Assembly: GCF_017921895.1 (NCBI RefSeq)
Contig: NZ_JAFIDN010000009.1
Location: 62,001 to 126,000 of the forward strand
Direction of reading: 5' to 3'
DNA length: 64,000 bases
From: Natronogracilivirga saccharolytica
Lineage (GTDB): Bacteria; Bacteroidota; Rhodothermia; Balneolales; Natronogracilivirgulaceae
Shown: positions 54,087-61,018 of the stretch, piece by piece
Layout of the letters: every line of letters starts with the position of its first letter
How positions within the stretch are numbered: position 1 is the first letter of the stretch
Position numbers and translations under genes: made by a program
The notes under the pieces: generated by a model
The model's database searches: none
The model's input: only the letters and a program-made list of their open reading frames with translations
Told to the model about the DNA's origin: nothing

Positions 54087-55163
54087 ATGCAAAAAATTAA
54101 AACCGCAGTTGTCGGAGCCACCGGCTATACCGGCTCTGAAATTGTTCGTATTCTCTCGCAACATCCCCGTGTGGAGCTTTCTCTGATTACTTCAGAATCC
54201 CGCGCCGGAGAAATGTTTTCTGACATACATCCCTTCTTTGCAGGGATAGTTGATCAAAAACTGGAAAAAGCCGAAAAGGTCGCGCAAACGGATCTGGATG
54301 TGGTGTTTCTGGCATTGCCGCATGGTGTTTCCATGGACTATGTAAAACAGTTTGCCGGACAAGATTTCCGGATTGTTGACTTTTCAGGTGATTTCCGGCT
54401 TCCAACTCCCGAAATCTATGAGCAGTGGTACCCCAAACAGCACAGTTATCCGGAGGGTTTTCCGAATGCTGTTTACGGATTGCCGGAGCTTTACGCTGAC
54501 CGTATCCGCAACGCCGGCCTGGTTGCCAATCCGGGTTGTTTCCCGACCGGAGCCATTCTTGCCCTGGCGCCTCTGGTGCAAAAGGGGATCATAAAAAAGG
54601 ACGGCATCATTATTGATTCCAAAACCGGGGTTACCGGAGCCGGGATCAAGGCCTCGGCCACCAATATGTTCTCCAATGTGAATGACAATTTTAAAGCCTA
54701 TGGTGTAAAGAAGCATCGCCATACCATTGAAATTCAAAGTGTACTGGAGGATGTCGGAGGTGCTCTCGGACCAGTGCAGTTTACACCTCATCTGTTACCT
54801 GTAGACCGTGGAATTTTGTCAACGGTTTACTTGCGTCCAGACAGCACCGGAAGGAAGCTGCTCGATGACAACAAGGGAAAAGACGAGACCGGGAAACAAC
54901 TACTGGAAAGTATTTTTAAAGAGTTCTACAAAGGCAAGACGTTTGTCCGTATGTGTGGGCAACCTCCGGCACTCAAGGATGTCCGTGCCACCAATTATTG
55001 CAATATATATGTTGATTATGATGACCGAACCGGTAATATCATGGTCATCAGTGCCATTGACAACCTGGTCAAGGGTGCTGCCGGACTTGCCGTGCAGAAC
55101 ATGAATGTTATGTTTGAACTCGATGAAACCTCCGGCCTGACCCATATACCGGTTAACCCCTGA
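54087..55163 (+). CDS. argC: N-acetyl-gamma-glutamyl-phosphate reductase
   Basis: A 358-residue NADP reductase. It starts with the Rossmann motif AVVGATGYTGSEIVRIL, has the nucleophile Cys in ANPGCFPTGAILAL, and the late HRHTIEIQ. It follows argB by 3 bases, so translation is likely coupled. It makes N-acetylglutamate semialdehyde. Its TGA stop lies inside the first unit of an 11-base repeat array (55160 onward). Confidence 0.95.
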   Translation: MQKIKTAVVGATGYTGSEIVRILSQHPRVELSLITSESRAGEMFSDIHPFFAGIVDQKLEKAEKVAQTDLDVVFLALPHGVSMDYVKQFAGQDFRIVDFSGDFRLPTPEIYEQWYPKQHSYPEGFPNAVYGLPELYADRIRNAGLVANPGCFPTGAILALAPLVQKGIIKKDGIIIDSKTGVTGAGIKASATNMFSNVNDNFKAYGVKKHRHTIEIQSVLEDVGGALGPVQFTPHLLPVDRGILSTVYLRPDSTGRKLLDDNKGKDETGKQLLESIFKEFYKGKTFVRMCGQPPALKDVRATNYCNIYVDYDDRTGNIMVISAIDNLVKGAAGLAVQNMNVMFELDETSGLTHIPVNP

Positions 55164-55280
55164 TGGTTTCCTGATGAATCTCTGATGGATCCCTGATTAA
55201 CCCCTGATGGTTTCCTGATGAATCTCTGATGGATCCCTGATTAATCCCTGATTAATCCTTGATGGTTCTCTGATAAATCT
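55160..55280. repeat. 11-base tandem array between argC and argJ
   Basis: Eleven consecutive 11-base units of the type CTGATnnnnYC (for example CTGATGGTTTC, CTGATGAATCT, CTGATGGATCC, CTGATTAACCC). The first four form a 44-base block repeated once at 55204. A truncated unit follows at 55281. The period equals about one DNA helix turn, and each unit carries TGA, giving stops in all frames. The array includes the argC stop codon. It lies within a 185-base gap before argJ. Confidence 0.85.
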
Positions 55281-55348
55281 CTGACTTCCCGGACATTGAG
55301 CTGATGATGTAATTACCGGTTTACAGCGAATTCAAAACAGTAAATATC

Positions 55349-56561: not shown

Positions 56562-56750
56562 CTATGAATCCGGTTTATTTTTTTTCTCTTCTTTTACGGT
56601 CAGGTACACAACAAAAATACTGCCGATGATTATGGCAAAGGTGACTTCAAGAAAGGTACCGGCGTCGAAATCGTTTTTGCTTTGTGACCAGAGATAATGA
56701 AGTAGCAAGTAGCCGGCCATAGGCGACAGACGAAACAGGATTTTCTTCAT
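56562..56750 (-). CDS. Small two-helix membrane protein, possible immunity factor
   Basis: A 62-residue protein from ATG 56750 (an ATG at 56765 adds five residues; no strong ribosome site for either). Two hydrophobic stretches (about residues 6-22 and 33-52) are joined by the polar SKNDFDAG, and the C-terminus is Lys/Glu-rich. It is the last gene downstream of the two leader-peptide precursors, the place where small immunity proteins of class II bacteriocins usually lie. No sequence family is recognised. The stop lies one base from the convergent argJ stop. Confidence 0.55.
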   Translation of the reverse strand: MKKILFRLSPMAGYLLLHYLWSQSKNDFDAGTFLEVTFAIIIGSIFVVYLTVKEEKKNKPDS

Positions 56751-56814: not shown

Positions 56815-57021
56815 TTACGTGCAGACTCCGTGTCTGCGGCTGTATGTTTCATCTTCGCCACAGCGTCCGGATTCATCGTCAGTAACCCTTCTGTAAGAGC
56901 CCCAAATAGCTCCCAGGAGCCAGATGGTACTTTCCAGTATCACGTCTCCGGCAGTGATATCCCTCATTTCCTGCTGATTCAACGGAGTAAGTGTACCTTG
57001 CGGGTAAGATATACTTTTCAT
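56815..57021 (-). CDS. Double-glycine-type leader peptide precursor B
   Basis: A 68-residue precursor. The first 25 residues look like a C39-peptidase leader (LTPLNQQEMRDITAG), with Leu, Glu, Met and Ile at the usual spaced positions and cleavage after a Gly-Ala-Gly-like TAG. The mature part of 43 residues begins DVILESTIWLLGAIWG, amphipathic to hydrophobic, then a polar tail with two Cys (RCGEDETYSRRHGVC) that may form one disulfide. A strong AGGGAGG ribosome site precedes ATG. It is 18 bases after precursor A and has the same length. No modification-enzyme gene is adjacent. Confidence 0.75.
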   Translation of the reverse strand: MKSISYPQGTLTPLNQQEMRDITAGDVILESTIWLLGAIWGSYRRVTDDESGRCGEDETYSRRHGVCT

Positions 57022-57039
57022 TTTGCGTGCCTCCCTTGA

Positions 57040-57246
57040 TTAGTCATCTGTGCTGCCATAACCGGCTTCGTATCCGGAGTTCCAGGCATCCACAAGATTT
57101 TGTCCGCCTGAATTCCAGATACTGCTTATTTCATTATACAGCAGGGTAACACCCACCGGAATCAGCCAATGAGGTGCACCTCCCGTGACTGCTTTTTGTT
57201 CGACAGAACTGAGCATTTCAAACGGTAAACCTTTTCTTTCTTTCAT
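57040..57246 (-). CDS. Double-glycine leader peptide precursor A
   Basis: A 68-residue precursor. Its leader FEMLSSVEQKAVTGG is a standard double-glycine (GG) type with cleavage after residue 23. The mature 45 residues begin APHWLIPVGVTLLYNEISSIW, hydrophobic and aromatic, followed by a Gly/Asn/Tyr/Asp-rich tail. There is no Cys in the mature part, so no lanthionine or disulfide can form. A GAGAGG ribosome site precedes the ATG. Together with precursor B and the C39-ABC exporter it resembles a two-peptide class II bacteriocin or a peptide pheromone. The activity is not known. Confidence 0.8.
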   Translation of the reverse strand: MKERKGLPFEMLSSVEQKAVTGGAPHWLIPVGVTLLYNEISSIWNSGGQNLVDAWNSGYEAGYGSTDD

Positions 57247-57302: not shown

Positions 57303-57620
57303 TCACTGTATATATAAATACATTGAATGCAAAAGATGTCCCCCATTTGTGCTCTTCAGGCTTTTTATATCAAGCTCGGCCTCATTCAGGAAGCCGATCA
57401 TTACTTTTCCGGGCTTTTCGTACTCATAGCTGCGTCTGAGCCGGTTATAACGGATCGGACAGTCGAGCTCCTCCCTTATTTCATCCAAAAGGTGGAAAAG
57501 CCATCGCTCCGAAATCCCAAGCTTTTCAGCCAGCTCTTTCGGCGATCCCGTGCTTTTTTTCCTGATGAGAATGTCCAGTCTTTGAATTCTGCTCAGATAC
57601 AAGTTTAATGCCATGATCAT
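57303..57620 (-). CDS. Small HTH-domain protein in the peptide-export operon
   Basis: A 105-residue protein from ATG 57620, chosen because that ATG overlaps the ABC-exporter stop (ATGA), a sign of translational coupling. It contains a helix-turn-helix SPKELAEKLGISERWLFHLLDEIREEL (positions about 27-53, quoted in parts: KELAEKLGISERWLFHLL), followed by a basic wing-like YNRLRRSYEYEK. It is probably a DNA-binding regulator of the peptide genes downstream. Similar small HTH proteins sit beside bacteriocin-like genes in Bacteroidota; I recall this only as a general pattern. Confidence 0.75.
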   Translation of the reverse strand: MIMALNLYLSRIQRLDILIRKKSTGSPKELAEKLGISERWLFHLLDEIREELDCPIRYNRLRRSYEYEKPGKVMIGFLNEAELDIKSLKSTNGGHLLHSMYLYIQ

Positions 57621-59818
57621 ATCCTGTTTATATATGTTTCCGGTTTGTGGGGAAATCCGTTTTGCCCCGGCATCTGTTGCTGCCATAATCTGAAGTATTG
57701 TTTTTTCCTTACAATGAGATCCTCATGTGAACCCTCTTCCACCAATTCTCCGTTTTCAAGCACACATATTTTGTCGGACTGTATGACTGTACTCAACCTG
57801 TGTGCAATAAGTATGACGGTTTTGTTTTGCGAACGGAAGTGCATTAATGCCTGCTGAACATACCGCTCCGACTCGGAGTCGAGCGAGGAGGTGGCTTCAT
57901 CCAGGATGAGTATTTCGGGATCCCTGTACAAAGCGCGGGCAATTGCAATACGCTGTTTCTGGCCGCCGGACAGGGTGGCACCGTTTTCTCCCAGATGTGT
58001 TTCAAATCCGTGCGGAAGCTGTTCAATAAACGGAAGGAGCCCGATTTTTCCGCATATATCGACTACCTTCTCAAAATCGGGGTGAAATTCACCCACGGCA
58101 ATGTTTTCAATGATGTTGCCTGAGAACAGGTCAATTTTCTGAGGCACAACAGAAATGAATTGCCTCAGACTGTGCGTCTCGATGTGATTGATGTCATATT
58201 GGCCGATCGTGACACGCCCGGATGTGACCGGATACATCTTTTGCAGAATACTTGTCAGAGTGGTTTTACCTGAACCGCTTTCTCCCACAAACGCAGTCAT
58301 TTTTCCTACCGGAATGACGATGCTCAACCCACGGAATACATCTGCACGGCTGCCGTACCTGAAGTGAAGATTTTCAATACGGATATCGCCGGCCATATCC
58401 TTGTTCAGCACAATCTTCTGACCTGCCTCCTCCTTGTCAATATCCATTATCTCGAACAGACGGTCAGCTGCAATCAATGCATCCTGAATGGTCTTGTTCA
58501 TACCGATTAGTTCATTGACCGGACCGGTGAAGTATCCTGTGATCGCATAAAAAGACAACAGTTCACCCGGTGTCAGTGCACCCTGAAGTACAAAGTAGGC
58601 ACCTGCCCACAGGACAATAATCGTAAACGATCGCGATGTCAGTTTTGAAGCATTACCTGAGAAAACCGAGTTGAGTCCGGAGCGGTAAATGGTCTTGAGA
58701 AGCCGGATAAACCTTGTTTCGGTGCGGATATTGGCGAAATCCTCCAGTCCGAACTGTTTGATGGTGGAAACCGAGTTCAGCGATTCAACCAGCTGCGCCT
58801 CAAGATCGGCGGCATCTTCCATCAGCTTTCGCTGCGTCTTTTTGTTCAGCCAGTTTGTGATGACATAGACCAGCAGATAAGTCGGAATGATTGCCAGCAT
58901 CAGAAGGCCTAGTTTCCAGTAATAGGTGAACATCAGTCCGAATGAGAACAAAACGATGAAAACGTTGACCAGAATGGTTATGGCAGTGTCATTGATAAAT
59001 GCCCGGATTTTCACGGCATCACCGATCCGTGAGGTAATTTCTCCCACTCGCATTGTGTCGAAAAAATGCTGAGGCAGCGAGAGCAGATGCTTGTAATACC
59101 CGAGAATGAGACGGGCATCAATGAGCTGACCTGTTTTCAGGGTGAGTACCGTCTTTATGACGCCGGTTGTTAACTGAAGCAGCAGGAGCATTAGCATTGC
59201 GATGCCCAGAAGATGCAGCAGATTCCTGTTACCGTCCGGCAGGACATGGTCCACAATGAGCTGAACGTAAATGGCTGTAGATAGACCAATAAGGGTGAAT
59301 AAGGCGGCACCCAGGGTCGCCTGCAGCAGTATGCTGCGATGCGGCTTGAGCAGATACCAGAGCCTTCCGGCAATTGAGGTCTTGTAATTACCCTGCTCAA
59401 ACGACTCACCGGGCATGATCAGTACAAGTACACCGGTCCACTCTTCCAGAAAATCTTTACGCGGTTTTTTTATCAGATTGCCCTCAGCGGGATCCATTAT
59501 GACAATGTATCGCTGCGTAACCTTGTAAATAACCACATAATGGAATATCGTTTTTTTGATGCATACATGGGCTATTGCGGGCACGGGAAGCTCCGAAAGG
59601 CTCTCAGGACCTCCTTTGACTCCCTTGGCAGTCAAGCCCAGCTTTCCGGCCGCCTCGATCAGCCCCAGGATATTGGTTCCTTTTTTGTCCGTCGAAGCAA
59701 ACTGCCGGATTTTGGAAACAGGCATATCCAGCCCGAAATGCCCGGAAACCGAAGCCAGACAGGCGGCGCCGCAGTCGGTTATGTCGCGCTGTTTAATTCT
59801 TATGTTTCTGCCTGACAT
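57617..59818 (-). CDS. C39-peptidase ABC exporter (bacteriocin/GG-peptide processing transporter)
   Basis: A 733-residue fused peptidase-exporter. The N-terminal C39 peptidase has Gln10 and the catalytic Cys16 in DCGAACLASVSGHFGLD, His93 in FHYVVIYKV and Asp109 in MDPAEG, so it looks intact. Six membrane helices follow (about 160-440). The ATPase has Walker A GESGSGKTTL (about 511), signature LSGGQKQRIAIARAL (about 615) and Walker B ILILDEATSSLD. The family cleaves double-glycine leaders and exports the mature peptide. It starts 12 bases after the HlyD gene and overlaps the HTH gene. Confidence 0.93.
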   Translation of the reverse strand: MSGRNIRIKQRDITDCGAACLASVSGHFGLDMPVSKIRQFASTDKKGTNILGLIEAAGKLGLTAKGVKGGPESLSELPVPAIAHVCIKKTIFHYVVIYKVTQRYIVIMDPAEGNLIKKPRKDFLEEWTGVLVLIMPGESFEQGNYKTSIAGRLWYLLKPHRSILLQATLGAALFTLIGLSTAIYVQLIVDHVLPDGNRNLLHLLGIAMLMLLLLQLTTGVIKTVLTLKTGQLIDARLILGYYKHLLSLPQHFFDTMRVGEITSRIGDAVKIRAFINDTAITILVNVFIVLFSFGLMFTYYWKLGLLMLAIIPTYLLVYVITNWLNKKTQRKLMEDAADLEAQLVESLNSVSTIKQFGLEDFANIRTETRFIRLLKTIYRSGLNSVFSGNASKLTSRSFTIIVLWAGAYFVLQGALTPGELLSFYAITGYFTGPVNELIGMNKTIQDALIAADRLFEIMDIDKEEAGQKIVLNKDMAGDIRIENLHFRYGSRADVFRGLSIVIPVGKMTAFVGESGSGKTTLTSILQKMYPVTSGRVTIGQYDINHIETHSLRQFISVVPQKIDLFSGNIIENIAVGEFHPDFEKVVDICGKIGLLPFIEQLPHGFETHLGENGATLSGGQKQRIAIARALYRDPEILILDEATSSLDSESERYVQQALMHFRSQNKTVILIAHRLSTVIQSDKICVLENGELVEEGSHEDLIVRKKQYFRLWQQQMPGQNGFPHKPETYINRI

Positions 59819-59830
59819 TGTATCTGATGT

Positions 59831-61018
59831 TTAATTTTCTGGTGTGTTATCCTGCGTCGTGTCGTACCAGATGGGGTTAATCCAGTCGTCAATGCTGTCA
59901 TGAAGCAGCTGCAACAGGCTCCTGCGGGTGACAATGAACCTTGCCTGCACCGTCATACCCTTTTTGATATTTCTGCGGATGCCGTTTGCCAGCTCCAGGT
60001 AGTCCCGGTCGAGTGTGCAGCGCAGGGTGAAGAAGAGCCGGCCGTCACTTATCTGAACGTCTTCCGATATAGATGAGACGGTTCCGTGCAGCAGTCCCCA
60101 TTCATGGTGGTTGAATGCATCCACCTGCAGGCGGACAGACATACCTTCCCTCAGCAGTCCGATATCTGCTGATGCAACATGCACTTCGGCGATCAAGGCC
60201 GTGTCGGGTGAAATCTCTGCCAGCACCTGGCTGTTGTGCACAAAGCTGTCGTGAAAAGCGCCGAGGACATTTTGCAGGGTTCCGGAGACAGGGGAGCGGA
60301 TGCGGTGCTGCTTTTTCTCAGTCAGCAGCTGATCATATTCGGAATCAAGCTGGTCTTTTTCCTCAATGAGCATTTCGCGGTCCGAGCTCCAGCGCTGCCG
60401 CTGCTGTTTGATGAAAAGCTTGTGCCGGGCTTTGCTGTTATCCCGCTCGCTGCAAACAGCTTCTGCTTCGGTTTTGCTTGCCGCTGCCACTGCAAAGAGC
60501 TCCTTTTTCCGGTTGCATCGGTTTTGCAGGTTATCCGTGACCAGCTGCTGCAGAACAAGCTGTTGTCTGAGCTCTTCCAGGGATTGCTGATACCGGGGTG
60601 TCACTAACCCGGCAGGTTGTATGGCAGGAATTTGCTGCCGGTCAATCAACAGTGTGAGGTCATCTATGAATGCGGCAACCCGTTTCCTGCGCAATCGATT
60701 TGCCCTGATGCGCTCCCTGATAACCGGCGATTCAAGCACCGCTATGATGTCGCCTTTTCCGACACGGCTGTTTTCGTAGATCTCCCATTTCCGGACATAT
60801 CCCGGGACAGGCGAATAGACCGGTACGATATCCATTACCGGGCGTATCATGCCGTGCCCGCGCACTCCTACATCTACCTTTATCAATGGCAGTAAACCCA
60901 GTCCGGCGAACGCTATCGCCAGCAAAAACACATAAAACACACGTGTGCCGGTGCCATGGCGTGAAAAATTATTCTCCTGACTGTTTTCGATGATCTCTTT
61001 CGGAAATAGCTGACTCAT
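59831..61018 (-). CDS. HlyD-family secretion adaptor of the peptide exporter
   Basis: A 395-residue membrane-fusion protein. One N-terminal helix (about 27-48), a short lipoyl-like strand (VYSPVPGYVRKWEIYENSR), a long coiled coil (about 100-245, rich in Arg, Gln and Glu), and the closing RSPVSGTLQNVLG and beta-barrel. It belongs to the HlyD/LcnD group that works with C39-type ABC exporters to cross the envelope. It is the first gene of the operon. No TolC partner is nearby; the TolC-like gene at 27512 belongs to another set. Confidence 0.88.
   Translation of the reverse strand: MSQLFPKEIIENSQENNFSRHGTGTRVFYVFLLAIAFAGLGLLPLIKVDVGVRGHGMIRPVMDIVPVYSPVPGYVRKWEIYENSRVGKGDIIAVLESPVIRERIRANRLRRKRVAAFIDDLTLLIDRQQIPAIQPAGLVTPRYQQSLEELRQQLVLQQLVTDNLQNRCNRKKELFAVAAASKTEAEAVCSERDNSKARHKLFIKQQRQRWSSDREMLIEEKDQLDSEYDQLLTEKKQHRIRSPVSGTLQNVLGAFHDSFVHNSQVLAEISPDTALIAEVHVASADIGLLREGMSVRLQVDAFNHHEWGLLHGTVSSISEDVQISDGRLFFTLRCTLDRDYLELANGIRRNIKKGMTVQARFIVTRRSLLQLLHDSIDDWINPIWYDTTQDNTPEN

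Follow-up and report, generated by a model that had tools for sequence, protein, structure and literature searches.

A candidate two-peptide, class-IIb-like bacteriocin regulon of Balneolales-type Bacteroidota, with a putative regulator that may be recognised by its own exporter

The systems closest to the locus described here are the class IIb bacteriocins (lactococcin G type; lactobin A/cerein 7B, TIGR03949), with which it shares two adjacent precursors carrying double-glycine (GG) leaders, a C39-peptidase ABC exporter (PCAT) with an accessory protein, a small membrane protein, an enrichment of the GxxxG motif across the family and two sibling peptides able to pass a class II cutoff. It differs from them in that the host is a Gram-negative member of the Bacteroidota, the regulator is of another kind, the pair encoded in the window (i.e. 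the whole stretch of 64,000 nt that was analysed) passes no model and the cores are mostly anionic. Typical class IIb peptides are cationic. The class II microcins of the microcin V/ColV export type are also similar, being Gram-negative systems with a GG leader and a PCAT assisted by a HlyD-type adaptor; unlike them, the locus has a two-peptide format, and its peptides show no similarity to known microcins, MccV included, in Pfam and NCBIfam.

Pneumococcal loci of the blp/com/rtg type rely on two-component regulation, unlike the wHTH gene found here. They resemble the locus in combining multiple GG peptides, PCAT export and coordinated regulation, according to the text available for PMC7018657; in the present case, however, the regulator would be a small one-domain wHTH protein with a C-terminal GG leader, and not of the Rgg/SHP type treated in that text. 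Bacteroidetocins belong to the same phylum and have a GG precursor and a PCAT with a C39 domain, but, as far as the accessible part of PMC6671954 describes them, they are class IIa-like single peptides that come with a thiol oxidoreductase plus a five-TM protein and lack self-immunity; that part of the text never uses the word 'regulator'. A HTH gene is reported in a Bacteroidales cluster, and the portion of PMC10352776 at hand describes no C-terminal leader for it. Literature searches for bacteriocins in Balneolota returned no paper.

The locus is composed of the following elements, all on the minus strand and transcribed in the order HlyD, PCAT, wHTH, A, B, 62-residue membrane protein.

59831..61018, minus strand: HlyD-family adaptor of the exporter (PF13437, 3.8e-15)
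57617..59818, minus strand: PCAT, the C39-peptidase ABC exporter (PF03412, 2e-33; ABC_membrane; ABC_tran)
57303..57614, minus strand: wHTH gene, putative regulator (conserved start MALN at 57614, stop at 57303)
57339..57386, minus strand: C39-type leader NEAELDIKSLKSTNGG near the wHTH C-terminus (PSSM score 21.5)
57303..57326, minus strand: 24-bp inverted repeat TCAATGTATTTATATATACAGTGA, candidate operator/promoter element (10/12 pairs complementary)
57040..57246, minus strand: precursor A of 68 aa, with a GG leader (residues 1-23) and a Cys-free core of 45 residues
56815..57021, minus strand: precursor B of 68 aa, with an AG leader (residues 1-25) and a core of 43 residues containing two Cys
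56562..56750, minus strand: 62-residue membrane protein, candidate immunity protein (49% identical homologue in the same place in genome G007)

The exporter contains all three expected domains (peptidase C39, ABC membrane and ABC ATPase) and scores 518.9 bits against model TIGR01193, 5 bits short of the cutoff of 523.85. The wHTH reading frame is open as far as 57686 (127 aa), and the inverted repeat overlaps its stop codon. A and B are separated by 18 nt, with a purine-rich ribosome site close to the 5' side of each. The gene position suggests an immunity role for the 62-residue membrane protein. Elsewhere in the window, between argC-like and argJ-like genes, a minisatellite-like array is found at 55153-55284, with period 44 (2.3 copies, 98% matches) and 11-bp units.

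Both precursors are real reading frames of equal length, as originally predicted from the sequence, and the cysteine pattern also agrees with that prediction: A is Cys-free, while B contains Cys54 and Cys67, 13 positions apart (core positions 29 and 42). The hydrophobic first half attributed to both is correct for their mature part, because the mean Kyte-Doolittle value of the core drops from the first half to the second, from +0.56 to -0.93 in A and from +0.61 to -1.58 in B. The leaders end with TGG in A and TAG in B and both fit the family leader pattern; A and B are, like class IIb precursors, adjacent genes with double-glycine leaders. The net charge of the core is -5 for A and -3 for B, and the majority of family cores are anionic. 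No bacteriocin family, nor any other usable match, was found for either peptide in Pfam and NCBIfam, and the monomer structure modelled for A is of poor quality (pLDDT 53.6).

Amphipathicity and GxxxG-like contacts had been proposed as signs of a two-peptide complex. In the A/B pair alone neither rises above shuffled sequences: A and B contain one GxxxG each (p 0.50 and 0.38), and the moments give p 0.09-0.54. Across the family GxxxG is enriched, occurring in 28/45 cores versus 14.3 +/- 2.8 in shuffles, the sequences being related to each other. Equal length was considered as a meaningful feature and discarded: the two lengths coincide in 4 of the 22 tabulated pairs described below, where random pairing would give 6.6%, and the lengths in G007 are 66/68. 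The cysteine asymmetry is not general either, since the Cys pair of B is kept in G007 only; in the remaining tabulated pairs Cys residues are absent, or found in one peptide, or in both. The idea that a disulfide structures one partner of a pore-forming pair, and so accounts for the asymmetry, gains no support from a Cys pair shared with the nearest relative alone.

Relatives of the pair were searched at several levels. Among 20 genomes of the same family, one strong relative of A was found outside the window's own genome (G000), in G007, where the full wHTH-A-B-membrane protein cluster is present with its order kept and HlyD and PCAT upstream. Identities to the G007 homologues are 53% for A, 46% for B, 53% for wHTH and 49% for the membrane protein, and the B homologue retains the CGEDxTxSRRHGVC motif. 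When profiles of A and B were run against 128 genomes of the order, strong matches were confined to G000 and G007, and weak matches to both coincide in G085, within a decayed cluster. In the latter (locus L034) the wHTH gene is internally deleted and the exporter is partial, but an A-like precursor and the repeat can still be read; by eye, it adjoins two metC/metB-like sequences. Absence of A and B together from other genomes had been named as the observation that would count against the original prediction; it was not what was seen, because G007 has the entire cluster in the same order. As for class IIb peptides, which are always found together, A accompanies B in G000 and in G007, and nearly all the relatives tabulated below have two precursors.

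A table of 22 non-redundant relatives, all from one Bacteroidota order, was compiled from the DNA downstream of wHTH loci and from orphan repeat sites, retaining loci with at least two precursors. Two loci reaching contig ends (L039, L045), the degenerate L034, L113 with one precursor, L109 with none scoring and L054, L056 and L057 with none were left out. Two precursors are present in 21/22 loci, and three in the remaining one (L037). Covariation of the cores, also proposed beforehand, is evident: the similarity matrices of peptide 1 and peptide 2 correlate with r=0.79 over the 21 two-peptide loci (after swapping the peptide order at L066), the best of 5,000 permutations reaching 0.46. The correlation is 0.60 when near-duplicates are removed (17 loci), and the partial correlation given wHTH is 0.89 (14 loci), whereas wHTH similarity predicts the cargo poorly (0.22 and 0.27). 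Pairs are therefore swapped as a whole, while the regulator and exporter stay the same. Co-occurrence, fixed order and a covariation independent of the neighbouring regulator are all in line with the view of A and B as one unit.

These data bear on the reading of A and B as one-peptide bacteriocins that act independently on separate targets, linked by nothing but a shared exporter and promoter. The two cores are indeed dissimilar, and the number of peptides is not constant, given the three at L037 and the one at L113. Most of the sibling precursors tested also fall below class II cutoffs: the second peptide of L029 narrowly passes the class IIb model TIGR03949 (21.8 vs 21.5) and the first peptide of L048 narrowly passes PF10439 (27.4 vs 27.1), the others scoring lower. 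Independent peptides are nevertheless at odds with the exact number of two in nearly all tabulated loci, with the strong covariation that persists after control for wHTH and with the single small membrane protein accompanying each pair in the window and in G007. This reading is accordingly considered unlikely, although it is the best of the alternatives to a two-peptide bacteriocin.

The wHTH protein proved a better search anchor than A or B. A genome-contig scan detected nine Balneolales-type loci; in 244 genomes of the class, a match was found in 23, 22 of them at E<=1e-15 and all in the same order, and a phylum-wide search of 395 genomes revealed relatives in other families too. Two loci belong to named strains, Rhodohalobacter sulfatireducens WB101 and Fodinibius sediminis DSM 21194, which makes tests practical; the latter has four cassettes, three of them orphan and one at its wHTH locus. 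The model of the wHTH protein is confident over approximately residues 21-90, with a helix-helix-helix-strand-strand fold, while residues 100-127, leader included, have pLDDT <50. Foldseek found nothing at E<=0.001; 1j5y (TM1602), a transcriptional regulator, was retrieved with rmsd 2.1 and E 0.13, and Pfam HTH matches remained under cutoff.

The C-terminus of the wHTH protein fits the pattern of the precursor leaders. In the precursors, hydrophobic residues occur mostly at positions -15, -12, -7 and -4, often with E/Q at -8; positions -4, -7, -12 and -15 are those contacted by C39 domains, as stated in the parts of PMC7018657 and PMC6363468 available. The wHTH C-terminus has hydrophobic residues at -4, -7 and -12 ahead of GG/AG. 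A leader PSSM was trained on the 45 downstream precursors only, and evaluated on 18,560 control windows from 43 long ORFs of the 64,000-nt stretch, the maximum score being 7.1. The leader exceeds all control windows in 16 of the 17 intact wHTH members of the order, with the best-scoring site always the same, 11-39 residues before the C-terminus, and scores of 9.4-24.4. L041 is an intact protein with SGG and a leader score of only 0.6. The wHTH gene is truncated in L034 and L054. In L047 (G095) an in-frame TAG is located just before the leader, yet leader and GG are readable beyond it and the cassette looks intact; this locus is a natural tail-less variant.

Outside the order, a C-terminal GG/AG is found in 12 of the 18 wHTH proteins examined, and the leader score is above all controls in 10 of these 12, L074 and L079 being the exceptions. 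When loci with enough sequence are considered (L078, where the contig ends, was dropped), precursors accompany 10/11 GG-tailed wHTH genes versus 1/6 tail-less ones (one-sided Fisher p=0.005). L079 has a GG tail and no precursors were found there; at L085, where the wHTH protein has no tail, precursors are located about 0.9-1.1 kb off. As a separate observation, at L056 and L057 a wHTH gene with a C-terminal GG-like motif lies directly behind the exporter, and a multi-pass membrane protein, CAAX-type protease-like by eye, occupies the place where precursors would be.

Within the order, the codons following GG overlap an inverted repeat of the CACTGTATnTATnnGTnCAGTG type, which marks the 3' end of the wHTH gene and is also found 5' of orphan cassettes containing A- and B-type peptides. 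The 19 sites collected have, on average, complementary bases in 6.1 of 11 symmetric pairs, against 2.9 +/- 0.3 in shuffles. Thirteen loci of the order both fit the repeat pattern and have GG, and in them the repeat is read in frames 0, 1 and 2 in 6, 6 and 1 cases, respectively. Four loci of one clade (L033, L046, L049, L053) miss the pattern, with 6-7 mismatches at best, and appear to hold a repeat variant. A different repeat, TTCCGTC-N11-GACGGAA, is found in the tail codons of another family. At L083 the protein ends right at GG, and the repeat DNA is still present downstream. What follows GG in the wHTH gene is thus probably a DNA element rather than a peptide.

Two alternative views of the wHTH gene are affected by these data. 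According to the first, the tail beyond GG is a secreted pheromone and the gene a fusion of signal and regulator. This would suit the short hydrophobic or aromatic tails behind a good leader, nearly identical in four genomes of one family (RPxxLDGxxIxL). It is disfavoured because, within the order, the repeat supplies the tail codons in each of the three reading frames and L083 lacks the tail; no receptor gene was seen either, and the pheromone is thus held to be quite improbable. According to the second, wHTH is not a regulator but another precursor beside A and B, its leader being a folded domain of the nitrile-hydratase type. The protein does consist of a folded domain with GG and a short tail behind it, and the available text of PMC6363468 reports that a C39 protease can cut after such leaders; this view is rated very improbable, as the tail is not conserved as a peptide and is missing in L083, and the inverted repeat co-occurs both with the wHTH gene and with distant cassettes.

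The distribution of the repeat suggests a regulon that extends beyond the wHTH locus. Allowing at most one mismatch, the repeat is found at 23 sites in 16 of the 128 genomes of the order, while a reversed control pattern gave none. It is present in 13/22 genomes with wHTH versus 3/106 others, a comparison that is partly circular because wHTH loci served to derive the pattern. Free of this circularity are the orphan sites, located away from an intact wHTH locus and with at least 500 nt downstream; the leaders of the locus tested were excluded from training. In genomes with wHTH, precursors follow 5 of 6 orphan sites, as a pair at L095, L097, L112 and L115 and as a single peptide at L113; the sixth, L109, has the repeat and no scoring precursor behind it. 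In genomes lacking wHTH, none of the 3 repeat sites has precursors behind, and the upstream and antisense controls contained none. At L095 a weak remnant of a wHTH gene is still visible. At L115, beside an Ala/Gly-rich pair, a DUF3267 putative zincin peptidase (PF11667, 1.4e-16) is encoded at 591-1181 past the site; L029 (7818-8402) and L047 (2358-2957) have DUF3267-like sequences by eye, also beside Ala/Gly-rich pairs, and these neighbours possibly constitute a different immunity or processing type.

In the window's own genome, the repeat occurs at up to three mismatches in five places, i.e. the window, two places without a cassette and the two orphan cassettes below, neither of which has an exporter or regulator nearby.

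L065, 5707-6567: orphan cassette C6, with an A-like and a B-like peptide, a 77-aa membrane protein and the repeat
L066, 3601-4353: orphan cassette C2, with two GG peptides, a 72-aa membrane protein and the repeat

It could also be supposed that A and B are signalling rather than killing peptides, since their cores are anionic and GG peptides also act as pheromones (text available for PMC7018657); the presence of two unlike, covarying peptides with an exchangeable membrane protein, together with the fit of sibling cassettes to bacteriocin models, makes this very unlikely.

The sequences establish the A/B pair and its joint inheritance, together with the leaders and the repeat with the orphan cassettes linked to it, and the explanation regarded as probable is a two-peptide, class-IIb-like bacteriocin regulon, the wHTH regulator of which is itself recognised by the exporter. 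In this model A and B would together make up one class-IIb-like bacteriocin of a Balneolales-type member of the Bacteroidota. Both would be cut behind GG/AG and leave the cell through the neighbouring PCAT-HlyD pair, with the 62-aa membrane protein protecting the producer. The wHTH protein would bind the inverted repeat in which its own gene ends, controlling A, B and the immunity gene, as well as the orphan two-peptide cassettes of the same genome carrying the same repeat, the peptides of which would share the exporter. The most likely use of the wHTH leader would be exporter sensing: the leader may dock on the C39 domain, or be cut by it, and promoter control would therefore depend on the state of the exporter, being tied to its presence and to its free capacity, i.e. 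to its not being saturated by precursors. The broader proposal that the C39 domain directly reads or edits the leader-tagged regulator, that control is coupled to export over several Bacteroidota families and that the scattered two-peptide cassettes form a regulon is evenly balanced between being right and wrong.

If the model is correct, two-peptide class-IIb-like bacteriocins would be extended to a Gram-negative lineage, the Balneolales. Among the titles and abstract openings searched, none dealt with a regulator carrying a GG leader at its C-terminus, and a regulator tagged for its own exporter would be a control mechanism absent from the literature found. The inverted repeat can serve to find peptide pairs that lack annotation, because orphan cassettes sit away from any exporter. 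For the organism, an export tag shared by the regulator and its cargo could let the cell tie bacteriocin production to its ability to export.
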